Shown here: one piece after another, positions 3,462 to 33,962 of the stretch | Layout of the letters: every line of letters begins with the position of its first letter | Numbering within the stretch: position 1 is the stretch's first letter | Origin: a virus | IMG/VR virus record: IMGVR_UViG_3300047510_002861 | Span: 1 to 33,962 of that record | DNA: 33,962 bases | Reading direction: 5' to 3' (one strand) | Position numbers and translations under genes: made by a program | Notes under the pieces: generated by a model | The model's database searches: none | The model's input: only the letters and a program-made list of their open reading frames with translations | What the model was told of the DNA's origin: nothing

Positions 3462-5345
3462 ATGAGTACAATCATTGGTATTGATCTTGGTACCACTAAT
3501 AGCTGCGTAGCAGTAGTCGAAAACGGAATCCCTCGAGTAATTGAAAATTCAGAAGGTGCTAGAACCACACCTAGCATTGTTGCCTACACCACTGACGAAA
3601 TTCTTGTTGGTGCTAGTGCCAAGCGTCAGGCAGTAACCAATCCCAAAAACACTATCTATGCTGCCAAACGACTAATTGGTCGAAAGTTCCAAGAACAAGC
3701 AGTACAAAAAGATATCAATTTAATGCCTTACACGATTACCGAAGCTGCCAATGGTGATGCTTGGGTGTCAGCACTAGATCGAGAACTTGCACCACCACAG
3801 ATTTCAGCCGAAGTTCTGCGTAAAATGAAAAAAACAGCCGAAGATTATCTTGGCCACGAAGTTACTCGAGCAGTAATTACAGTTCCTGCTTACTTTAATG
3901 ACAGCCAGCGCCAAGCTACCAAAGATGCAGGAGCAATTGCTGGACTAGAAGTTCTGCGTATTATCAATGAGCCGACCGCAGCGGCATTGGCTTATGGAGC
4001 AGACAAAAGTGACAAAAAGGATCGCAAAATTGCTGTTTATGATCTTGGTGGTGGCACCTTTGATATATCTATTATCGACATCGCTGATGTGGATGGTGAT
4101 AAACAATTCGAAGTACTTAGCACCAATGGGGATACATTCCTAGGCGGCGAAGACTTCGACCAACGCATTATGGATTACTTGATCACTGAGTTCAAAAGGG
4201 AAAGCGGTGTCGATCTCGCCCGAGACGTTATGGCTCTACAGCGTCTCAAAGAAGCAGCAGAAAAAACAAAAATTGAATTGAGTAACAGCACACAGACAGA
4301 TGTCAACTTGCCTTACATCACTGCCGATGCTTCGGGCCCTAAACATCTTAATGTAAAGATTACTCGTGCTAAACTAGAAAGTCTAGTTGAAGACCTAATT
4401 CAACGCAGCATTGAACCTTGCCGTACAGCTATGCAGGATGCCGGTGTAATGGCGTCCGACATCGACGAAGTTATCCTTGTTGGTGGTATGACACGTATGC
4501 CTCGGGTTCAAGAAGAAGTTGAAAAATTATTTGGACGGGCACCACGACGTGATGTCAATCCAGATGAAGCAGTCGCAGTAGGAGCAGCAGTACAAGGTGC
4601 TGTCCTCGGCGGCGAACGCAAAGACGTTCTACTCCTTGACGTAACCCCACTAAGCCTAGGCATCGAAACCATGGGCGGAGTGATGACCAAACTAATACAG
4701 AAGAATACCACTATTCCCACCAAGCATAGCCAGGTATTCTCCACGGCCGAAGACAACCAGCCGGCTGTAACGATCAAAGTTTATCAAGGTGAACGTGAAC
4801 TTGCACAATATAATAAACTATTAGGCGAATTTAATTTGGAAGGAATTCAACCTGCTCCACGCGGTGTACCACAAGTAGAAGTCACGCTGGATGTTGATGC
4901 CAATGGTATTCTCAAAGTAAGTGCCCGTGATAAACAAACTGGCAAAGAAAATCGGATTACTATCAAGAGTGACAGTGGTCTGAGCCGGGAGCAGATTGAA
5001 GAAATGATTCGCGATGCTGAAGCAAATGCTGATGCTGACAAGAAACAACGCGAGTTAATTGATGTAAGGAACCAAGCGGACACAGTTGTCCACAAGGTTC
5101 GCACTGATCTGAAAGAAGTTGAGGGCCGACTCTCAGAGGATCAGACGAAGACAATACAAGATGCTATCGCTAAACTAGAAGAAGCAGTATCAGGCACAGA
5201 CCAAGAAGCAATTACAACTCGATTGAGTGAATTGCTTGTGGCCTCTGCTGCAATTAATGAAGTAAAGCAATCGACTACAGAGGAGTCTGCAAAGCCCAAT
5301 GCGGATGACACGGTGGTTGATGCTGAGTTTACAGAAAAGAAGTAA
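3462..5345 (+). CDS. dnaK: Molecular chaperone DnaK (Hsp70)
   Basis: The 627-residue protein is a full-length Hsp70. It starts with the phosphate loop [18 protein letters not shown], contains DLGGGTFD at 194-201, the interdomain linker [12 protein letters not shown] at about 389-400, a complete substrate-binding beta domain, a helical lid, and a DnaK-like tail (DDTVVDAEF). ATP hydrolysis drives binding and release of unfolded polypeptides in the cytoplasm. The Shine-Dalgarno is AAGGAG, 5 bases before the ATG. No dnaJ or grpE is in the window, so host co-chaperones may be used. It is followed by an ibpA-type holdase and clpS, a proteostasis module. Neither truncation nor lost nucleotide-binding residues is visible. 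Hsp70 is unusual in phage genomes. Confidence 0.96.
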
Positions 5346-5354
5346 AGAATATGC

Positions 5355-5426
5355 AGAGTAGATGCCCGGGTGGGGTCTACTCTCATATATGTCATAACTT
5401 GCTTAAGAAAGGAGACGACTATGACA
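5355..5426 (+). promoter_or_regulatory. ROSE-like RNA thermometer of the ibpA-type gene
   Basis: The upstream hairpin pairs AGAGTAGA (5355-5362) with TCTACTCT (5376-5383). In the terminal hairpin, TGTCATA (5390-5396) pairs with TATGACA (5420-5426), which includes the start codon. Inside it TTGCTT (5399-5404) pairs with AAGGAG (5409-5414), the Shine-Dalgarno, with a G-G mismatch (5401/5412) and an AAGA tetraloop. Sequestration of both the ribosome binding site and AUG before an ibpA-type gene closely matches the known ROSE class of heat-sensing leaders. Confidence 0.65.
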
Positions 5427-5858
5427 ACATATACAATTAGCACTTTTGATCTACCTACACTACATCGCCACGCCGTGGGCTTTGATAGATTATTCAATGA
5501 GCTAGGACGCACTTTTGCCAATAGCAAAGCTGATAATTATCCGCCACATAACATTGTAAAAATCGACGAGAATCACTACGCTATCCAACTTGCAGTTGCT
5601 GGCTTCAGTGAAAATGAACTGGACATTGAATACAAAGAAAATGTTCTAACGATTTGTGGCGAACAAAAGCAAAAAGACGAGTATGAATACTTGCACCGAG
5701 GAATCAGTGCTCGTAATTTTGTTCGTCATTTTACTTTAGCAGACAATGTAGAAGTGAAAGGTGCCACTGTAATCAATGGTATCCTGGCAATTAGTCTTGA
5801 GCATATTGTTCCCGAAGAACAAAAAGCCAAAAAAATTGCAATTACCTTTGCTAAGTAA
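5421..5858 (+). CDS. ibpA: IbpA-type small heat shock protein (Hsp20)
   Basis: The chosen ATG has AAAGGAG 6 bases upstream; an in-frame start at 5370 lies in the leader hairpin and is rejected. The 145-residue product closely follows enterobacterial IbpA: N-terminal LHRHAVGFDRLFNEL, YPPHNIVKIDENHYAIQLAVAGF at the start of the alpha-crystallin domain, HRGISARNFVRHFTLAD, then GATVINGILAISLEHIVPE and a C-terminal basic IxI-like tail. IbpA is an ATP-independent holdase that keeps unfolding proteins in a refoldable state for DnaK. It lies directly behind dnaK, so the two could act in one pathway. A hairpin terminator follows. Confidence 0.93.
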   Translation: MTTYTISTFDLPTLHRHAVGFDRLFNELGRTFANSKADNYPPHNIVKIDENHYAIQLAVAGFSENELDIEYKENVLTICGEQKQKDEYEYLHRGISARNFVRHFTLADNVEVKGATVINGILAISLEHIVPEEQKAKKIAITFAK

Positions 5859-5867
5859 TATAATAAC

Positions 5868-5894
5868 AGTAGGGGGAATAATCCCCCTACTTTA
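5868..5894 (+). terminator. Hairpin terminator after ibpA
   Basis: AGTAGGGGG (5868-5876) pairs perfectly with CCCCCTACT (5883-5891) around a 6-base loop. Only a short T run follows, so termination may be incomplete and clpS may be partly read through. Confidence 0.6.
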
Positions 5895-5907
5895 AACCTA
5901 CAAGATT

Positions 5908-6219
5908 ATGAGTAAAACAGACATTGTAGTAAAACCTCGAATTCAGGTTAAAACAAATATTAAACCTCCTAGTTTGTTCAATGTCATTTATCTTAATGAC
6001 AATGTAACTACAATGGAATTTGTTGTAGAAACACTCAAAGCAATTTTTCATCATACAGAAGAAACTGCTTACGAAATTACTAAAAAAATTCACGAAGAAG
6101 GTAGCAGTGTAGTTAGTACACTGCCATATGAAATTGCTGAACAAAAAGGTGTAGAAGCTACATTATTAGCTCGTAACAATGGTTTTCCTCTCAACGTTAA
6201 ATTAGAACCAGCCACTTAA
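5908..6219 (+). CDS. clpS: ClpS, adaptor of the ClpAP protease
   Basis: The 103-residue product matches the ClpS family: a flexible N-terminal tail, KPPSLFNVIYLNDNVTTMEFVVETL (core strand and the ND-T-MEFV ligand-binding segment), a helix around HHTEETAYEI, KKIHEEGSSVVSTLPYEIAEQK, and a final strand (PLNVKLEP). ClpS binds proteins with N-degron residues and hands them to ClpA/ClpP, while its tail inhibits other ClpA substrates. Phage copies could redirect host proteolysis; in marine phages they have been proposed to aid host protein turnover. No strong Shine-Dalgarno precedes the ATG. The stop overlaps the next ATG (TAATG). Confidence 0.92.
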   Translation: MSKTDIVVKPRIQVKTNIKPPSLFNVIYLNDNVTTMEFVVETLKAIFHHTEETAYEITKKIHEEGSSVVSTLPYEIAEQKGVEATLLARNNGFPLNVKLEPAT

Positions 6220-11247: not shown

Positions 11248-11694
11248 ATGAACAAAATAATTTTTACATTATTAACAATCCTGTCTATTGAAGCAACGGC
11301 GCAAGAATTTCCACTGTCAATCACAGAAAACAATCAAATCATTTACAATGAAGCTGATTGGCAGCAGGCAGCACAATCTAATATATTTCAATTGTCTGTA
11401 CACAAAGTTTCAATAAATGTTCGCCAACAACAAGTTCCTGTATATTCACTTACTGAATTCAACAATCCAGACGGACAAAAATATGAAATGTTAGAACAAC
11501 CTGTTTACAAAATTTATACTTTTGGCTTGTTAGATTGCCAAACTGCTCTGTTTAACATTATGAATCATTGGTTTGTTGACAAAGACAACAAAATTGTTTA
11601 CAATGATGTAAAATCTGTTGGCTCATATATAGTTGATATGAGAGCCAACAATACTCCTCGTAACGATTTATTCCGTCTGGTTTGTAATAAATGA
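11248..11694 (+). CDS. Secreted hypothetical protein, 148 aa
   Basis: A signal peptide (MNKIIFTLLTILSIEATAQ, cleavage after TAQ or ATA) leads a mature protein of about 130 residues. Two cysteines (LLDCQTAL and RLVCNK) could form a disulfide in the periplasm. CGGAG (11236-11240) provides the ribosome binding site. The stop overlaps the D,D-peptidase ATG by 4 bases (ATGA), so the two are probably made together. No known domain is recognised. Confidence 0.7.
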   Translation: MNKIIFTLLTILSIEATAQEFPLSITENNQIIYNEADWQQAAQSNIFQLSVHKVSINVRQQQVPVYSLTEFNNPDGQKYEMLEQPVYKIYTFGLLDCQTALFNIMNHWFVDKDNKIVYNDVKSVGSYIVDMRANNTPRNDLFRLVCNK

Positions 11695-12458
11695 CTATTC
11701 GCTTTCTAATAACAGCAATCATAATGATTGTTAGCAGTTCCGTATTCTCTGCTAACATATCAGCTAAATCGTGGCTTATTGCAGATGGCGAAGGCAATAT
11801 TCTTGAACAAGAAAATATCAATATTCAGCAACCTATTGCCAGTATTACAAAATTAATGACTGCAATGGTGGTATTAGACTCAAACGAAAATTTAAAAACA
11901 ACAGTTGTCAAGAGATTTCGCGGACTGACAGTCACTAGAGAGCAACTACTCAATCTTGCAATAATAAAATCAGACAATCAAGCAGCCAAAATGTTGTGCG
12001 AATTATACCACCGTGGATATAAACAGTGCATTGAAGATATGAATCACAAGGCGCAAATTTTAGGAATGCGTGATACAAGATTTGAAGATAGCAGTGGGCT
12101 AGACAATCGTAATGTAAGTACACCGCAAGATTTAATAAAACTTTTATTAGCAGCGGAAAAATATCCTGCCATTGTGTATGCCAGTAACCAAAGCGTTGGG
12201 GAACTGCTAAAACCCAAAAAGAAAAAAATTCTTAAATGGCGCTATACAAATACCAATCCGCTAGTGGCCAAATATAATGTAATTGTGAGCAAAACTGGAT
12301 ATGTACGTGCCAGCGGTGGTTGTTTGATCATGAGTATAATTATCAAGAAACAAAAAAAACTTTTTGTTGTTTTGAATAGTTCTACAACCAGAACAAGAAT
12401 CCATGACATGGAACAATTGATATTGACTACCATTCAAGAAGAACACAATCAAAAGTAA
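11691..12458 (+). CDS. S11 family D-Ala-D-Ala peptidase (PBP7-like)
   Basis: The 255-residue protein has a signal peptide (MTIRFLITAIIMIVSSSVFS) and all three penicillin-binding signatures: SxxK (S51-K54, SITK), SxN (S94-N96, SDN) and KTG (K201-G203). Spacing and size fit the PbpG/DacA-type periplasmic endo- or carboxypeptidases, without the C-terminal DacA stalk. The substrate is the peptidoglycan peptide stem. It lies behind a membrane mini-protein and a secreted partner. It could soften the host wall at lysis, reshape peptidoglycan, or block a competing phage. Cytoplasmic endolysin motifs are absent. Confidence 0.9.
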   Translation: MTIRFLITAIIMIVSSSVFSANISAKSWLIADGEGNILEQENINIQQPIASITKLMTAMVVLDSNENLKTTVVKRFRGLTVTREQLLNLAIIKSDNQAAKMLCELYHRGYKQCIEDMNHKAQILGMRDTRFEDSSGLDNRNVSTPQDLIKLLLAAEKYPAIVYASNQSVGELLKPKKKKILKWRYTNTNPLVAKYNVIVSKTGYVRASGGCLIMSIIIKKQKKLFVVLNSSTTRTRIHDMEQLILTTIQEEHNQK

Positions 12459-12540: not shown

Positions 12541-13770
12541 ATGACAGTAGGTTTTATTGGTTTGGGTAAACTAGGCATGGCTTGTGCAGAAACCATGGCT
12601 GGTCATTACGCTGTAACCGGTTATGATATAAATTCAAAGCAAAGCAACAAAATTAAAATATCGGACAATTTGCGTGGTGCAGTTACAGGCAAAGAAATTG
12701 TATTTGTAGCAGTACAGACCCCACACGATCCGGATTATGATGGTTCAAAACCAATAACTCATTTACCCAACAAAGATTTTGATTATACTATTGTAAAGAA
12801 TGTTTTAAAACAAATTGATCAATGGGCAAGTCCAGATCAACTTATTGTTCTTATTTCTACTGTATTACCCGGCACAGTTCGTAGAGAACTCAGAGACTGT
12901 ATTACTGTTCCACGTTTCATTTATAATCCATATCTTATTGCAATGGGCAGTGTAGAATGGGACATGATAAATCCTGAAATGGTGATCATTGGTACCGAAG
13001 ATGGTAGTGAAACTGGTGATGCTCGATTACTGATTGATTTTTATCGACCGTTAATGCAAAACAATCCTCGTTATGTTGTGGGCACGTGGGATGAAGCAGA
13101 ATCAATTAAAATATTTTATAATACATTTATTAGTACAAAAATTGGTCTAGTAAACATGATTCAAGATGTTTCAATGAAAAACGGAAACATCAACGTTGAC
13201 ATAGTTACCGATGCATTAGCCAATAGCACAACACGTATTATGAGTCCCAAATACATGAAGGCGGGAATGGGCGATGCAGGACCTTGTCATCCACGTGATA
13301 ATATTGCATTACGTTGGCTTGCAGAAAAGTTAAATCTTGGTTATGATATTTTTGACACAGTAATGAACGCACGTGAACAACAGGCAAAAAATTTAGCTAG
13401 ATTTTTAAAAAGAATTCAAATTGAAAAAAACTTACCTATTTTTATCATGGGCAAGGCATATAAGCCTGATGTAGATTATTGTGATGGAAGTTATAGTTTG
13501 TTAATCGGACATTACCTAGAAGAAATACAAGCAAAGTATTTTTATATTGATCCTCTCACTGGAGACCAACCTCCGTTCGACGAAGTGCCAGTAATTGCAT
13601 TTTTGGCTCATAATAGAGAAGTCACATACGGTTATACTGGAAATCAAAACGAACAAGAATTTTATTGTAAATTAGAAACAGGTAGTGTGATTGTTGATCC
13701 GTGGCGTAAATATCCCAAGAGCAGCGAAAAATATACTGTGATACATTATGGCAACACACGAATGGTTTAA
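12541..13770 (+). CDS. UDP-sugar (glucose/N-acetylmannosamine) 6-dehydrogenase family
   Basis: The 409-residue protein has the NAD-binding GFIGLGKLG at 4-12, an acidic ribose contact (YDIN) at 28-31, NTFISTK at 194-200 with the conserved Lys, and GMGDAGPCHPRD with the presumed catalytic Cys at 249. These are the elements of UDP-glucose or UDP-ManNAc dehydrogenases, which oxidise a UDP-sugar twice to the uronate. The C-terminal UDP-binding domain is shortened but present (MGKAYKPDVDY). AAGGA precedes the ATG. It heads a tightly overlapping operon ending at 18825, which suggests a role in building a modified sugar, possibly on a virion or host surface. Confidence 0.88.
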   Translation: MTVGFIGLGKLGMACAETMAGHYAVTGYDINSKQSNKIKISDNLRGAVTGKEIVFVAVQTPHDPDYDGSKPITHLPNKDFDYTIVKNVLKQIDQWASPDQLIVLISTVLPGTVRRELRDCITVPRFIYNPYLIAMGSVEWDMINPEMVIIGTEDGSETGDARLLIDFYRPLMQNNPRYVVGTWDEAESIKIFYNTFISTKIGLVNMIQDVSMKNGNINVDIVTDALANSTTRIMSPKYMKAGMGDAGPCHPRDNIALRWLAEKLNLGYDIFDTVMNAREQQAKNLARFLKRIQIEKNLPIFIMGKAYKPDVDYCDGSYSLLIGHYLEEIQAKYFYIDPLTGDQPPFDEVPVIAFLAHNREVTYGYTGNQNEQEFYCKLETGSVIVDPWRKYPKSSEKYTVIHYGNTRMV

Positions 13771-28602: not shown

Positions 28603-28731
28603 ATGAACAAGAAAACAATTTTTGTGTGTTTGACTGTGTTTTACCTAGCTGGGTGTGGCACAGTGGGTGGTGCGATTTCAGGTGCTGGTCGAGACCTAAG
28701 TCGCGCCGGTGATTGGATTCAATCTAAATGA
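28603..28731 (+). CDS. Entericidin-like lipoprotein, 42 aa
   Basis: The 42-residue product MNKKTIFVCLTVFYLAGCGT has a lipobox (LAGC, Cys 18) with Gly at +2. The mature part (TVGGAISGAGRDLSRAGDWI) follows the entericidin EcnA/EcnB pattern: Cys, then T-V, a G-x-G-x-D turn and an amphipathic AGxxI helix. Entericidins are small outer-membrane lipoproteins; EcnB is described as bacteriolytic and EcnA as its antidote. It lies in a block of phage lipoproteins. Either a lysis aid or an immunity-like factor would fit. Confidence 0.72.
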   Translation: MNKKTIFVCLTVFYLAGCGTVGGAISGAGRDLSRAGDWIQSK

Positions 28732-28739
28732 GGTTAACA

Positions 28740-29330
28740 ATGAATAAGTTTGTTATTTTTATGGTTCCTGTTCTTGCTGCACTTACAGCCTGTAGTTCTG
28801 TACCCAACAACAACTACGATAAAAGAGCAGAAAAAGAAAGAGAACTAGATATTGCTTCTAATAAAATTATCAGAGCAAAAATGCCAGACTGGTATCAGTC
28901 CTTGCCCAAAGTAAACAATGCGGTATTGTCTCAAGGTATTGGTATCAGTGTAGATCCGCAAGGATCTGTGGACAAAGCCAAACTAGATGCATACAAAAGC
29001 ATTTGTATGGCCGCCAATGGTAAAGTTGATATGGACAAAAGAAATTTCACGTCCGAGGTGGAAAAACAGTCCATTGAGAGATTTGAAGTAGCTGTACGTG
29101 CCATGTGCGAAAAAACAGCCGTGCGTGGAGTCGAATTGGCCCAGATAGACGGAGTAAAATCTCTACAAAGTTACGATTTGCCCAATGGTAGCTGGGTGTC
29201 TTTTGTGCTTATAGCTTTGCCAACTGGTCCAGCTAACGTGATACAAACTGAACATAATAGACAAGAGTTGTCAAAAGATGCATCTAAACGGGCAGACAAA
29301 ATGTTTGACAACATGGACAAAAAACAATAA
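28740..29330 (+). CDS. LPP20-like lipoprotein, 196 aa
   Basis: The ATG at 28740 gives the lipoprotein signal MNKFVIFMVPVLAALTACSS (Cys 18, Ser +2); an earlier ATG at 28728 is in frame but weakens the signal. The mature protein contains MPDWYQSLPKVNNAVLSQGI, DKAKLDAYKSICMAANGKVD and an aromatic C-terminal strand, resembling the LPP20 family of surface lipoproteins. A Lys/Asp-rich tail closes it. It ends just before a strong terminator, so it is the last gene of the envelope block. Confidence 0.7.
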   Translation: MNKFVIFMVPVLAALTACSSVPNNNYDKRAEKERELDIASNKIIRAKMPDWYQSLPKVNNAVLSQGIGISVDPQGSVDKAKLDAYKSICMAANGKVDMDKRNFTSEVEKQSIERFEVAVRAMCEKTAVRGVELAQIDGVKSLQSYDLPNGSWVSFVLIALPTGPANVIQTEHNRQELSKDASKRADKMFDNMDKKQ

Positions 29331-29368: not shown

Positions 29369-29402
29369 ATGATTATACAAAACTTACCTAAAAATAAAAT
29401 TC

Positions 29403-29410
29403 AATAAATA
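29403..29410 (+). promoter_or_regulatory. Late-promoter-like octamer AATAAATA
   Basis: The octamer ends 4 bases before the ATG at 29415, so a T4-like start would fall on the start codon. There is no Shine-Dalgarno sequence in the gap. The arrangement mirrors that before the S21 gene. Confidence 0.45.
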
Positions 29411-29414
29411 CAAA

Positions 29415-30065
29415 ATGCGCTTACGTGAACTAGAACAAAGATCCCTTGGCCGTCCAGAAATATTCCTAGACATGGACGGAGTACTAGCAGATTTCTTTTC
29501 GGAATATGCAAAACTAGCCGGTGTACCGCCCAACACACAGGGCAGATACGATTATCATGCCATCCCGCCTGAAAAGCGAGAACCTATAATACAGCAAATG
29601 GTGGGCACAGACTTCTTTTACAGACTGCCCAAATTTGCATCGGCAGATAGATTGGTAGCAATGGCTGTACAAGTATTTGGATATTATAACATTTGCTCTA
29701 GTCCGCTGCGTGGAGATCACAAGAACTCAGAAGCAATGAAACGTGCTTGGATTGCAGAAAATCTAGATCCGCAGCCCACAAAGATTATTATTACTCAGCG
29801 TAAAGGCAAATATGCCAAGCAGCAGGATGGCACGCCAAATATCTTAGTTGATGATCGTAATACTGTAATCTCCGAATGGGAACAATCTGGCGGCATTGGT
29901 ATCAAGTATCAAGCAGATGAAAATGGCCTAGATACAGTGGCCCGTGGATTACGTCAGGCTTTTGAAATCCTTAAAGGACAGCGTGAGCACGAGCCTCGAA
30001 ACATACAGAGCCAGGACTATGGTCGGATGATTGCCGGCCCACAGGACAAACAAGATGCGAGCTAG
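29415..30065 (+). CDS. HAD-superfamily 5'-nucleotidase-like phosphatase
   Basis: The 216-residue protein carries DMDGVLADF at 19-27, the nucleophile motif of HAD phosphatases of the 5'(3')-deoxyribonucleotidase type; later come CSSPLRGD (motif with Ser) and ILVDDRNTVI (acidic motif). It would remove phosphate from nucleotides or a similar ester. The N terminus is MRLRELEQ, the first of five consecutive genes with a related M-[RK]-x-x-[ED] start. That start resembles the T4 capsid-targeting sequence, although here it is shorter and lacks a clear cleavage site. The stop lies 11 bases inside the next gene. Confidence 0.82.
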   Translation: MRLRELEQRSLGRPEIFLDMDGVLADFFSEYAKLAGVPPNTQGRYDYHAIPPEKREPIIQQMVGTDFFYRLPKFASADRLVAMAVQVFGYYNICSSPLRGDHKNSEAMKRAWIAENLDPQPTKIIITQRKGKYAKQQDGTPNILVDDRNTVISEWEQSGGIGIKYQADENGLDTVARGLRQAFEILKGQREHEPRNIQSQDYGRMIAGPQDKQDAS

Positions 30066-30732
30066 AGAATTTATACGCGAAGTAAAATTGGGACCTGGAG
30101 GTACTGTAGATACACAACAGTATGGATCTTCTACAGTGGATCAGCGAGGTCCCGGGTTGTCCTTGACAAGAGATGAACGAGGTCGTCCCGTTGAACCTGA
30201 ACCAGGGCTAGAGGCTCCTTTGATTGATCCTACTGATATTGTTGGTCTAGGACCTAAGCTAGTCTCAAAAGGTATAGCCAAACTAGCACAAGGCGGCGCA
30301 AAACTAATGCAAAAAGCTCAACCTTATGCACTTGGTTTAGATATTACTCGACCCGCAGTAAAAAATCAATTGTATGATGTTCCTTATGGTGGAGCTAGTT
30401 TTAAACCAGGTTCAACACAAATGGGTTACAATATGCGAGGCGTATCCAGCCCGAAAGAAATCGAAGACATGATACGCACTGGCTATGTGAATCCACGAGC
30501 AGGTTTAAAGCCCAGTGATCCAGGATACGAAACCAAATATTGGGTACATACTGACAAGCCACAACACATGCCGCACCACGGACAAGCAGCCACTATACGA
30601 GTACCATCGAGCAAAACTCCAGTGGGAAGAGCCGTTAGTTCCAAGGATGTTGAAACATTTAATCAAGCAACAGGTACTTGGGATCCTTTAATGGGCGCAG
30701 CAGTTAATAAAGGAAGAAAGACGGGCAAATGA
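30055..30732 (+). CDS. Candidate injected ART-toxin-like protein
   Basis: The ATG at 30055 gives the N terminus MRAREFIREVKLG, which resembles the T4 capsid-targeting sequence MKTYQEFIAEA; I-R-E is a possible prohead-protease site. An earlier start at 30031 would place the signal internally. Residues about 60-90 (LIDPTDIVGLGPKLVSKGIA) resemble linkers of polymorphic toxins. The C-terminal region (MRGVSSPKEIEDMIRTGYV, then YWVHTDKP and AATIRVPSSK) resembles ADP-ribosyltransferase toxin folds with a leading Arg-Gly strand. This assignment is tentative. T4 Alt, an ART injected from the head, is the functional model. No membrane segment or export signal is present. Confidence 0.55.
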   Translation: MRAREFIREVKLGPGGTVDTQQYGSSTVDQRGPGLSLTRDERGRPVEPEPGLEAPLIDPTDIVGLGPKLVSKGIAKLAQGGAKLMQKAQPYALGLDITRPAVKNQLYDVPYGGASFKPGSTQMGYNMRGVSSPKEIEDMIRTGYVNPRAGLKPSDPGYETKYWVHTDKPQHMPHHGQAATIRVPSSKTPVGRAVSSKDVETFNQATGTWDPLMGAAVNKGRKTGK

Positions 30733-31484
30733 GAGCAAGTGATTTTTTAACGGAATTTTTAGACACCAATGGTGATGGCGGTAAAGAAGATCCTGACTCT
30801 TTTCCACTAACTGAATTTGCTGATATTATAGAACAATACTTAGGTCGTGGATATACAAGACAGGATAGAGAAAAACCTGAACAAGTTAGTGTGAAGTTTG
30901 AACCAAAAGACAAATCTCGCAACGGTGCAATACTTTACAGTGTAGTTGGCAAGCGAGGTGAATACCCTACTGTTAACGTTCATTTGCTTGACTATGAACA
31001 AGGATTTGGTAGAGGACGCAAAGCCGGTGTTGCAATACCAAAAACTAGAGACAATGCACTTAAACTTGCGGAATTAATTTTTAATGCACAATTAAACGAA
31101 TTTTTAAACAAATTAACAGAAAGTACCTTTAGCGATCATGAAGAGCAATTACGCGACTTTGTTGCTTGGTGTGTAAAAAAATTAAAGATCAAACAAGCAC
31201 TGCCCGAGATACGTTTTCAAGATGCCAAAGAAGGCCCAGACCAACATCACACTGGTTATTATAGCGACACCGATGATGTCATGTGGATCTACACAGGCAA
31301 CAGAAACATGATTGATATTATGCGTACAGTGGCACACGAATTGACACATCGCAAACAACACGAAGACGGTCGGGTCAATGGCAATCAAGCATATCCGGGA
31401 TCACCAATTGAACAAGAGGCCGATGCGGTTGCTGGATACTTAATGAAATTATATGGTAAAAAAAATCCGGAGATAATAGAATGA
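30729..31484 (+). CDS. Zincin-type metallopeptidase with capsid-signal-like start
   Basis: The N terminus MRASDFLTEFLD resembles the capsid-targeting motif. Residues about 9-120 form an extra domain that includes the calcium-loop-like LDTNGDGG. The catalytic zincin motif is HELTH at 203-207 (AHELTHRKQHEDG), with E230 in IEQEADAVAGY as the probable third zinc ligand. It may cleave a host protein after injection, or process head proteins. Coupled by ATGA to both neighbours. Similar zincins occur in T4-like marine phages. Confidence 0.78.
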   Translation: MRASDFLTEFLDTNGDGGKEDPDSFPLTEFADIIEQYLGRGYTRQDREKPEQVSVKFEPKDKSRNGAILYSVVGKRGEYPTVNVHLLDYEQGFGRGRKAGVAIPKTRDNALKLAELIFNAQLNEFLNKLTESTFSDHEEQLRDFVAWCVKKLKIKQALPEIRFQDAKEGPDQHHTGYYSDTDDVMWIYTGNRNMIDIMRTVAHELTHRKQHEDGRVNGNQAYPGSPIEQEADAVAGYLMKLYGKKNPEIIE

Positions 31485-31954
31485 AAGCAAGAGAATTTAT
31501 AAAAGAAGCAGATGCACTACAGATTCAACAAGGACCCGACATCAGTCCCGAACTTCGTCGATACAAAGAACGAGGAACACTAGATACATTTGGTAGCGAC
31601 AGAGAATTTGGTGTACAGGATATTGTGGGCGGCGGCGCATCCAGAATAGCAAAAACAACACCTACTACACCTGGCACTGATCCTGGGTTTCAGCGGTCTA
31701 TGGGAAAAATTACTAAAGAATTCGACCCTGTGCATCATCAGAGATTGTACCGAGAATATGAAAAAAATCCTCAGTACTTTATCCCCCCACCCAAATCAGG
31801 AGAGGATACCTATCACCATGCAAATAGTATGGCACAATTTGTAATGAACAGATTTCCCAACGCCGATATTGGTACTCTTAAAAATATTGTTACAGGGTTG
31901 TCGACAATTTCTGCAAAACAAGCATTGCGAGCAAAGCAAAATCGAGATCAGTAA
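31481..31954 (+). CDS. Capsid-signal-like protein of unknown function, 157 aa
   Basis: The best match to the T4 targeting sequence in the window: MKAREFIKEADALQ, where I-K-E followed by A fits the gp21 protease consensus ([IL]-x-E before A/S/G). The rest is polar (RRYKERGTLDTFGSDREFG) with a helical C terminus. No enzyme motif is recognised, so it may be an internal head protein like T4 IP proteins. Confidence 0.65.
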   Translation: MKAREFIKEADALQIQQGPDISPELRRYKERGTLDTFGSDREFGVQDIVGGGASRIAKTTPTTPGTDPGFQRSMGKITKEFDPVHHQRLYREYEKNPQYFIPPPKSGEDTYHHANSMAQFVMNRFPNADIGTLKNIVTGLSTISAKQALRAKQNRDQ

Positions 31955-31969
31955 AGGTTTAGTAATAGA

Positions 31970-33962
31970 ATGAGATACCGTGAATTTGAACTAACCGAAG
32001 ACGAGTTATTTGAACTCAAAATGAGTCCCAGCAATTTGGCTAGAATGGCCAAAAGCATTGATGCCAGAGCTGGCCTAGAGTTTGAACTTATAGTGCCGGG
32101 TGTACAAGATGAAGAGGAAGAATTTGAGTCAGAACCCGACTACGATGCCGATGAAAGATTTCCTATTGGGCCGGGATGGCGTAGAGATGTTGTTGAATTC
32201 TTCCGCGGCGGCGAAATGGGAAACAGTACCAGTTATATTGAAAGACGCATTGCAGAGCTAGATGAAAATTTTTACGGTTGGTTTGATGACGAAATAGAAA
32301 ACTATATTGGTGGAGATGCTGGACAGGAACGAGCATTGGAAATCGCTACAGACAATGTTAGCGAAGATGATTACGATACCACAGAGGAATACCAATCTGC
32401 TCTACTTGCCTATATTGAACACAATGAAGATAAAATTAGAACAGAAATAGAAGAAGAATTACGGGATGATGCTGACAGTTTTTGGGAGCGTTATCTAGAC
32501 GAAGAAGGCATAAACTCCATGGCCGACTTTGCCAACGAATACGATCTAGAGTGGCCGTACTGGACTCAACAAGAATATTATGGCGGTGGTGGGGCCAGCA
32601 TTGATGCCGTTGCCCAAGATTTCTCAGATGCGATTGGTCGTTCAGTGAATGCTGCATCTGGTTACCACAGTGGTCGCAGAGAGCCCGGCAAGTATGTGGT
32701 AGAGCCTGATTCTAGCTTGCACGGTGACAACGGTGAATCAGGATTGGAGTTTGTTAGCCCGCCCCTGACTATTCCTGAAATGATAGAGGACATAGATAAA
32801 GTGGCCAAGTGGGCCGGTCGTGCGGGTGCTTATACAAATGAAAGCACCGGATTGCATATGAATGTGAGTGTACCCGGTCAAGCGAATCTAGACTATGTAA
32901 AATTGGCCATGTTCTTGGGCGACAATTACATATTGGAACAATTTGGTCGTGAAGGTAATACATACTGCAAATCGGCCTTGAATAAAATCAAACAAACAGC
33001 ACGAGCCAATCCTGACCGTGTGGATGAAATGCTCAGGCAGTTCCAGGGTGGTCTCAATCAATTGGCCAGCAAACTGATACACACTGGATCAACTGAAAAA
33101 TACACCAGTATCAATGTGCAAAGCAATAGAGTGGAGTTTCGTAGTCCCGGTGGTGATTGGCTTGGAGAGTATGCCAGCGACCCTGGTAAAATTACTAATA
33201 CCTTATTACGTACAGTGGTAGCATTGGATGTAGCCACCAAGCCTGAAGAATACAAACAAGAATACTACAAGAAGTTGTATAAAACACTGAGTCAAGGTCA
33301 AGAAGATAGCAGTATTGAATACTTTGCCAAATATGCTGCCGGCGAATTGCCCAAAGCAGCATTGAAGAGTTTTATCAGACAGATACAAACCAAGCGCCAG
33401 GTTGGCAAAGAAAAACCTGATCAGACCCCAAGCAGAGATCAAGAGTTCACCGGTACTTGGGAAGTTGTTAGCCGACCCACTGACGAAGTTGTGCATACTA
33501 TAAGTGGTATTGGTAATGTTGTTGCTGACGCCGAAAGACATGCTCAGATATGGGCAATCACAACAGGATTTGATGATCCTATCTATGTTCGCCCACAGAT
33601 GCGACCAAGAGATTCTGACAGCTCTAATAGACCAGGTCCAGCAATTTATTCTATCATTGATAATCGTGATGGTGAAGTTTTACTCCCTGGGCAGCAAGGT
33701 ACATGGGTTTATATTCAAACTATAGCAGATAATATAAGGAATAGACGCGGAATTCCTCGCGAAGATATTCGTATCATTGATATGGAACAAAATCGTGCAT
33801 ACTTACTCAGTGGGCAACCTGCTCATCCAAGTAGTCGGCCTACAGCAGGCGGCGAGCAAAGTTCTGACGCTAATTACGAAATTGTAGATTATAGTACTGC
33901 AGAAGCAGTTCCGGTGTTTAGATTTATCGCTAACACTGATCAAGATGCACAAAGAAAGTTTC
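31970..33962 (+). CDS. Amidoligase-like (COOH-NH2 ligase) protein, 3' end outside window
   Basis: Open for 664 codons to the window edge. It begins MRYREFELTEDELFELK, again capsid-signal-like. Residues 34-42 (AGLEFELIV) resemble the first glutamate-rich motif of the amidoligase family; a long acidic insertion follows. The core motifs come later: E245 region, SGLEFVSPPL at 257-266, and STGLHMNVSVPG at 292-303, matching the E-x-x-SPPL and GLHxxV pattern of ATP-dependent amide-bond-forming enzymes. RVEFRSPGGDWL follows. The C-terminal third (about 490 onward) seems to be a separate, repeated alpha/beta domain (TWEVVSRPTDEVVHTISG; NYEIVDYSTAEAVPVFRF). If packaged, it could ligate amines to host proteins. 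Confidence 0.72.
   Translation, partial: MRYREFELTEDELFELKMSPSNLARMAKSIDARAGLEFELIVPGVQDEEEEFESEPDYDADERFPIGPGWRRDVVEFFRGGEMGNSTSYIERRIAELDENFYGWFDDEIENYIGGDAGQERALEIATDNVSEDDYDTTEEYQSALLAYIEHNEDKIRTEIEEELRDDADSFWERYLDEEGINSMADFANEYDLEWPYWTQQEYYGGGGASIDAVAQDFSDAIGRSVNAASGYHSGRREPGKYVVEPDSSLHGDNGESGLEFVSPPLTIPEMIEDIDKVAKWAGRAGAYTNESTGLHMNVSVPGQANLDYVKLAMFLGDNYILEQFGREGNTYCKSALNKIKQTARANPDRVDEMLRQFQGGLNQLASKLIHTGSTEKYTSINVQSNRVEFRSPGGDWLGEYASDPGKITNTLLRTVVALDVATKPEEYKQEYYKKLYKTLSQGQEDSSIEYFAKYAAGELPKAALKSFIRQIQTKRQVGKEKPDQTPSRDQEFTGTWEVVSRPTDEVVHTISGIGNVVADAERHAQIWAITTGFDDPIYVRPQMRPRDSDSSNRPGPAIYSIIDNRDGEVLLPGQQGTWVYIQTIADNIRNRRGIPREDIRIIDMEQNRAYLLSGQPAHPSSRPTAGGEQSSDANYEIVDYSTAEAVPVFRFIANTDQDAQRKF

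Follow-up and report, generated by a model that had tools for sequence, protein, structure and literature searches.

A leader resembling the T4 internal-protein signal heads varied phage enzymes, and its putative cut-site motif recurs inside fused proteins

Why would a run of genes for unrelated proteins begin with nearly the same amino acids? The 3' end of IMGVR_UViG_3300047510_002861 raises this question; the window analysed here is this entire IMG/VR contig, 33,962 bases long and itself a fragment. A sequence-only reading had proposed that five consecutive genes there share a start like the capsid-targeting sequences of phage T4 and encode proteins that are packaged in the head and injected. 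We found a shared leader (the tag, consensus M-R-A-x-E-F-[IL]-x-E in the first 9-10 residues) on many kinds of cargo, and we consider it probable (about 0.82, trimmed from 0.83 for virion counts that are not independent) that the block encodes internal head enzymes of the T4 superfamily, whose capsid-targeting propeptide would be cut by a gp21-type protease and which would be packaged and injected.

T4 supplies the precedent. Its internal proteins IPI, IPII and IPIII are non-homologous, share only a leader and are cut by gp21 (PMC9026906, PMC12373910), which cuts after a short L/I-X-E motif (PMC9026906). Ten N-terminal residues of IPIII are enough for loading, with positions 4 and 7 serving targeting and positions 8 and 10 cutting, and a T4 review raises the possibility that T4-like phages use signals of this type to load varied proteins (PMC9026906). 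By the letters of the T4 record, the leaders of IPII and IPIII have a basic second residue and close with E-F-[IL]-x-E, and T4's MKTYQEFIAE has the same elements as the tag consensus.

In the window, all five starts proposed earlier were found in place: MRLRELEQ (29415), MRAREFIREV (30055), MRASDFLTEF (30729), MKAREFIKEA (31481) and MRYREFELTE (31970). Among 56 crude genes (the largest non-overlapping open reading frames (ORFs), not the output of a trained gene caller), M[RK]xx[DE][FL] matches these five, in one unbroken run, and none elsewhere in the set. The earlier count of three genes with a following [IL]xE had to be raised to four, as the amidoligase adds LTE at residues 8-10; the motif ends at residue 9 or 10 in all four (IRE, LTE, IKE and LTE). 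Three genes fit F-[IL]-x-E exactly and the amidoligase reads FELTE. The block is as follows.

29402..29410, plus strand: T4-late-promoter-like element CAATAAATA, 4 nt ahead of the block's first ATG
29415..30065, plus strand: HAD-fold 5'(3')-deoxyribonucleotidase-like protein, start MRLRELEQ (PHROG 2643, E = 1.7e-20)
30055..30732, plus strand: 225-residue protein with the tag MRAREFIRE at 30055-30081, read from the sequence; the ORF tool instead chose a TTG at 30031, upstream of the tagged ATG at 30055
30729..31484, plus strand: two-module protein with the tag MRASDFLTE (30729-30755), an FLD module and then a zincin, from sequence and alignment
31092..31121, plus strand: internal candidate cleavage sites LNE (31092-31100) and LTE (31113-31121), the LTE directly preceding the zincin module (STF...)
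31122..31481, plus strand: zincin metalloprotease-like module with HELTH at 31335, the HExxH being kept in 8 aligned relatives
31481..31954, plus strand: 157-residue protein with the tag MKAREFIKE then A at 31481-31507, read from the sequence
31970..33962, plus strand: amidoligase-like protein (PF12224), cut by the contig end, with the tag MRYREFELTE at 31970-31999

The tag is not confined to the window. Over the window and five related contigs, 32/547 crude genes match M[RK]xx[DE][FL] where 4.6 are expected from shuffled N-terminal columns, and the fuller form [MVL][KR]x(3,4)F[ILV]xE occurs 20 times where 0.37 are expected; relatives of two tagged genes led to these five contigs, whose blocks are not independent samples. 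Codons vary synonymously over the tag; hence, it is conserved at the protein level. A DNA pattern for MRAxEF[IL]xE found at least 119 stretches in viral contigs versus 8 for a control with two codons swapped. Matches were classified at 80 listed loci each for viral and bacterial sequence. A tagged ORF of at least 50 residues starts within 76/80 of these viral loci; among the matches listed, 63/86 viral ones sit at a plausible gene start versus 4/80 bacterial ones, and 53/80 bacterial ones lie deep inside open frames. The tag thus sits at gene starts in phages and rarely does so in bacteria.

Behind this constant start, the cargo is swapped. The same type of block occurs in related contigs with different cargo, and in one of them (G005) 8 of 9 consecutive genes are tagged, two of them with variants (MRAFQFLTE and MRANDFYES). 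The 236 tagged proteins that we collected fall into 51 single-linkage clusters (1e-4), a count that includes a few doubtful starts, so the leader is shared by unrelated proteins. The HAD enzyme illustrates the point, with starts examined at 65 of 80 loci (the other 15 being mostly near-copies): at L252/L253 the homologue starts MRAREFIIENKRGTPEVFLDMD, with MRAREFIIEN directly preceding the same enzyme; MLIREIISE or MRIREIIKE heads other homologues, and a tag is lacking in some, e.g. MDKKKTEIYLDMDG. Since its homologues are canonically tagged, variant or untagged, the tag has been added onto an enzyme that is complete without it. Untagged relatives exist in isolates as well: Melnitz, an isolate from the HAD search, has gp21 and an untagged HAD relative, and the zincin relative of S-SRM01 is untagged, stands among replication genes and has no [ILV]xE site.

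Of 50 further IMG/VR contigs, related or bearing the tag, 12 have the prohead protease gp21 (PF03420). The capsid protein gp23 (PF07068), sought in 39 of those 50, is whole in the same 12, is a stub at the contig end in G011 and is missing from the remaining 26; both genes are present in each of the seven contigs longer than 200 kb. The positive controls T4, Melnitz, S-SRM01 and Atu_ph07 were detected in these searches. The gp21 search was negative for 6/8 control-pattern contigs (21-70 kb), which are too short to weigh. These results show that the tag lives in phages with gp21 and gp23, in counts that cover related or tag-bearing contigs only; the 12 contigs may also include near-copies of one phage, as G033 and G037 have identical amidoligase match figures. 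The seven readable gp23 N-termini carry [IL]xE (LAE, LKE, LSE, LTE or LGE) at residue 41-42, comparable to the LTE at residue 65 of T4 gp23, and the gp22-like scaffolds that were read have many sites of the [IL]xE type.

The cut-site motif recurs inside fused proteins. We took the 236 tagged proteins without their nine tag residues and sought them inside longer proteins of the collected loci, retaining only alignments that began with a module's first residue. Of 100 boundaries that lie more than 80 residues inside a protein and have distinct upstream sequence, 63 have [ILV]xE directly in front of the module, as do 42 of 70 that lie more than 200 residues inside. At other offsets the same boundaries gave a mean of 2.25 with [ILV]xE (maximum 6), and for untagged control modules (5,836 query proteins) the motif precedes only 7/327 boundaries. 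The alignment cannot produce this tripeptide because the query never contained it. The count leaves out 13 near-identical upstream contexts (at the 80-residue setting) and 4 boundaries with an intact tag in front of them; a first version of the count gave 67/108, and removing 4 doubtful queries with a long open frame upstream left 63/100 unchanged. An acidic module (family 9) is an exception, with [ILV]xE at 2/18.

The zincin shows the same arrangement. As a single gene it starts MRAREFVVE then STF (L226/L227) or MRAQEFITE then STF (L228), and in five fused copies, the window's own included, the junctions read LTE/STF, LTE/STF, LNE/STY, LNE/STY and INE/STF, so that [ILV]xE is present in 5/5; the count covers copies whose alignment begins at the module's first residue, as more distant zincins align later. 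Several effector domains share one chain in relatives, HAD with zincin in G002 and zincin with amidoligase in L236_7405, whose nucleotidyltransferase-like N-terminus was identified by eye. Hence, from its enrichment at boundaries, [ILV]xE behaves as a cleavage site, and its retention in front of fused modules suggests that the fused proteins are probably polyproteins; this would be the simplest account of the sequences. That environmental T4-superfamily phages make injected effectors as polyproteins, with each [ILV]xE-preceded module freed by gp21 inside the prohead and several effectors thus obtained per gene, is a proposal towards which we lean.

Three short basic modules (NFADGK..., KWSxKYKxSINC... 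and DWQKxNxKDKTDG...) often stand directly after [ILV]xE sites, for example at L275:14956-15147, L112:1518-2255 and L215:8110-8394 and in many polyproteins. Part of the DWQKxNxKDKTDG module is also found in small Pelagibacter phages.

Tagged relatives are present in published virion proteomes of T4-like cyanophages, in which modules of these polyproteins occur. The S-CREM2 virion proteome comprises 52 proteins of 219 ORFs (PMC10665884), and a scan of all starts in its genome gave four tagged ORFs, namely gp6 (an S-adenosylmethionine (SAM) hydrolase), gp13, gp14 (a kinase) and gp154 (a cytidylyltransferase); all four are in the available virion table (p = 0.003). So is, with 4 peptides, the polyprotein gp137, in which MNE precedes a module that is tagged elsewhere. 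For S-SZBM1 (30 of 218 proteins; PMC9146016), the cytidylyltransferase, the sole enzyme named by its authors in the available text, starts MRFRQFIIE then A, and 1/2 strictly tagged genes was detected. For S-SCSM1 (45 virion proteins, flagged in the sequence record; PMC9602691), one annotated start fits the strict pattern, that of the NMNAT (MKSFLQFLKE then A), which is among the virion proteins (1/1). Pooled over the three cyanophages, 6/7 strictly tagged genes were detected (p = 3e-4), or 5/6 with ATG starts only (p = 0.001) and 5/7 with gp13 taken as a miss (p = 0.004), p values that treat genes as independent. Five of the six detected proteins are enzymes. The strict pattern has its elements from T4 and the window, was written after the S-CREM2 N-termini had been viewed, and admits GTG and TTG starts; hits off annotated starts were dropped (2 in S-SZBM1 and 3 in S-SCSM1), and SSZBM1_192 (MKTFKQYITEA, not virion-listed) falls outside the pattern. 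For another relative, the amidoligase-like gp196 of Atu_ph07, the evidence is positional: its gene lies within one of that phage's three virion gene clusters (PMC6102473), with the portal gene on the other strand.

Two of the virion-listed or flagged proteins, S-CREM2 gp137 (L483:4804-6276) and S-SCSM1_29 (L499:42662-44215), lie between two terminase genes. Similar proteins stand between the terminase genes of S-SM2, Bellamy, DSL-LC02 and S-SRM01.

Packaging and processing, as proposed from the sequence, are thus supported by the boundary [ILV]xE and by the cyanophage proteomes, and injection would follow by analogy with T4. A number of findings weigh against this reading. The HAD gene, which the sequence-only reading counted among the five, is a weak and degenerate member: it has no F and no well-placed [IL]xE, its sole LRE being at residues 3-5. 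The window and the five first-found contigs gave no gp21 or gp23 match; all six are fragments, and as such their lack of a match was not weighed against packaging. The residue after the tag (P1') is unconstrained (A, G or S in 60/208), unlike the A that follows the sites of T4 IPII, IPIII, gp22 and gp23, and the targeting-relevant Tyr4 of the T4 signal has no fixed counterpart. In the proteomes, gp13 was detected by one peptide, gp14 starts with GTG, and a small tagged family is unlisted in two proteomes, its members there being SSZBM1_191 (MKSFKSFLSE) and SSCSM1_30; adding SSCSM1_30, which fits a relaxed pattern, gives 6/8 (p = 9e-4). Homologous nucleotidyl transferases make up three of the six detected proteins (gp154 matches the other two), leaving about four independent cargo families. 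Among six S-CREM2 virion proteins named by the authors as non-structural, three are tagged and three are not: the Cas9-like gp12, with a similar stretch only around residue 20, and two endolysins, for which the whole-genome start scan gave no tag match. The S-CREM2 authors state that co-purification cannot be excluded (PMC10665884), and the available virion tables carry no mature N-termini and come from cyanophages, not from the window phage's clade.

How far could the same data be explained otherwise? The proteins might enter the virion uncut, attached to the core or to a different component of the head, with [IL]xE as part of the docking helix; the unconstrained P1' would fit, as would tags that end in D (MRAYEFLKD in G002), given that in T4 an Asp at the last position blocks cutting and not targeting (PMC9026906). 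We consider this unlikely, because [ILV]xE also stands at internal boundaries (63/100 versus 7/327), where N-terminal docking is impossible. The tag might instead address another virion part, such as the tail tube or baseplate, or sort proteins within the cell for another phage protease, and the available proteome tables give no location within the virion. This is quite improbable in view of the elements shared with the T4 internal-protein signal and the overlap with gp21/gp23 phages, and the apparent tagged tail-tube protein is likely a false internal start. That hit (L118:9464) was rejected, since it looks like an internal ATG and its match begins inside the tail-tube profile; it is still counted in the P1', cluster and boundary figures. 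Finally, a constant start with clearly shuffled cargo behind it is what one would expect if the start were a by-product of recombination or translation, a leader easing shuffling or initiation without a role in packaging. We give this very little credence: the protein and not the DNA is conserved, the control with two swapped codons found just 8 stretches, the internal [ILV]xE is conserved, and tagged genes are enriched in the published virion lists.

Under the preferred reading, that of head-packaged and processed enzymes, the tagged proteins would be made late, and their first 9-10 residues would dock them on the prohead core or scaffold through the [DE]F[IL] part. A gp21-type prohead protease would then cut after [ILV]-x-E and free the mature enzyme, which would be packaged inside the head, enter the host with the DNA and act there. 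Upon fusion of cargo genes, a tag would lose its upstream half and keep [ILV]xE before the module, so that the fused protein would be divided into individual effectors within the head. Tag and linker site would then be one device in two positions, with cargo freely gained, fused and split.

For late synthesis, the promoter-like element offers a modest association that is not specific to tagged genes. The element at 29402..29410 was labelled by the T4 late-promoter consensus. TAAATA ending 4-8 nt before the ATG gives 39 elements for 237 tagged genes versus 243 for 3002 other genes, and TAAATA within 30 nt is found for 50/237 versus 514/3002. Across genes of the collected loci, TAAATA ending 4-7 nt before the ATG forms a sharp peak (the window instance is 29402-29415), as if T4-type late promoters drove nearly leaderless mRNAs.

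What the window's block carries agrees with most of the labels given from the sequence. The HAD phosphatase stands by its PHROG 2643 match, with an NT5C Pfam match below cut-off; the zincin stands by its conserved HExxH, with weak Pfam matches to DUF3920 and M78 below cut-off; and the amidoligase domain (32591-33157) matches PF12224 at E = 3.1e-11, over cut-off, its relative in L231 starting MRYQEFLSE then DELFE. The 157-residue protein at 31481, called an unknown, indeed gave no Pfam match over cut-off, no PHROG match and no homologue among the collected loci. The ADP-ribosyltransferase (ART)-toxin-like label of the 225-residue protein at 30055 drew no support from Pfam and PHROG, where no family matched, or from a structure model too poor to use (mean predicted local distance difference test score 39.7), no fold search having been made.

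Across the collection, 57 cargo representatives matched 10 Pfam and 39 PHROG families (25 of the 39 displayed). By family match, the cargo includes amidoligase, HAD nucleotidase, SLT transglycosylase, Fe/Mn superoxide dismutase and cytidylyltransferase, with a weak match to nucleotidyltransferase, and relatives carry a protein kinase of PHROG 15752, presumably akin to that of T7 gene 0.7. Other cargo was labelled GNAT, ParB-like or ART-like by eye only. Two common tagged families of about 125 residues and the NFADG module had no match by tblastn against isolate phages. An adjacent pair of tagged genes of about 125 residues recurs in many contigs (e.g. L041:1424-2172 and L055:3473-4221), and the representatives of the pair that were tested had no PHROG match.

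Elsewhere in the window, a predicted lipoprotein (weak LPP20 match, 28728-29330) lies just upstream of the HAD gene, and relatives of the same Melnitz protein stand near the HAD gene also in G001, G002 and G004. A chaperone cluster (3462-6219) encodes DnaK (PHROG 22485, E = 7e-271), Hsp20 and a protein labelled ClpS-like by eye. A D-alanyl-D-alanine carboxypeptidase gene (PF00768, 1e-38; 11691-12458) adjoins a UDP-glucose dehydrogenase-like gene (PHROG 9148, 4e-96; 12541-13770). Hsp20 and a few other window genes have relatives in the T4-like phage Melnitz.

How does this compare with known systems? Relative to the T4 internal proteins, the tag has a 9-residue form in the window's clade without a fixed Tyr4, the cargo forms islands of enzymes and not small inhibitors, and the cut-site motif also occurs inside fusions. 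T4 Alt is likewise a head-packaged enzyme, an ADP-ribosyltransferase that is cut by gp21 and injected (PMC9026906, PMC5512222), whereas the cargo here includes an amidoligase and zincin-like and HAD nucleotidase-like proteins, joined in relatives by a protein kinase. In phage P1, an N-terminal signal of DarB suffices to load a foreign protein into the head, and, unlike the shared tag here, no N-terminal consensus of Dar proteins was found by the authors in the available text (PMC9024508). Polyvalent proteins of phages and conjugative elements are also multi-domain (peptidase, ParB-like, GNAT) and predicted to be packaged and injected, and their processing is ascribed to a peptidase domain of their own (PMC5512222), whereas here a prohead-protease motif stands at the boundaries. 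In phiKZ and SPN3US, packaged proteins are cut C-terminal to Glu after a short motif by gp175 and gp245 (PMC9026906, PMC10052503), but the N-terminal propeptides of SPN3US have 20-254 residues and the phiKZ motif is S/A-X-E, in contrast to a 9-10-residue tag and [ILV]xE.

In the literature covered, with subscription papers and preprints largely outside it, we came across no account of the tag in environmental phages, of tagged enzyme islands or of internal sites making polyproteins. The best reading is that T4-like loading of internal proteins, which is already known, here carries enzymes, partly as polyproteins processed in the prohead. The rule [MVL][KR]x(3,4)F[ILV]xE together with internal [ILV]xE would then reveal the injected arsenal of uncultured phages from their genomes. 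It would also explain the kinases, cytidylyltransferases and SAM hydrolase in cyanophage virion preparations, for which the S-CREM2 authors considered contamination possible. Many of the cargo families matched no described family, and the rule would list them as candidate host-takeover and counter-defence proteins; with the fused genes, the processing of polyproteins within a phage head would become open to test.

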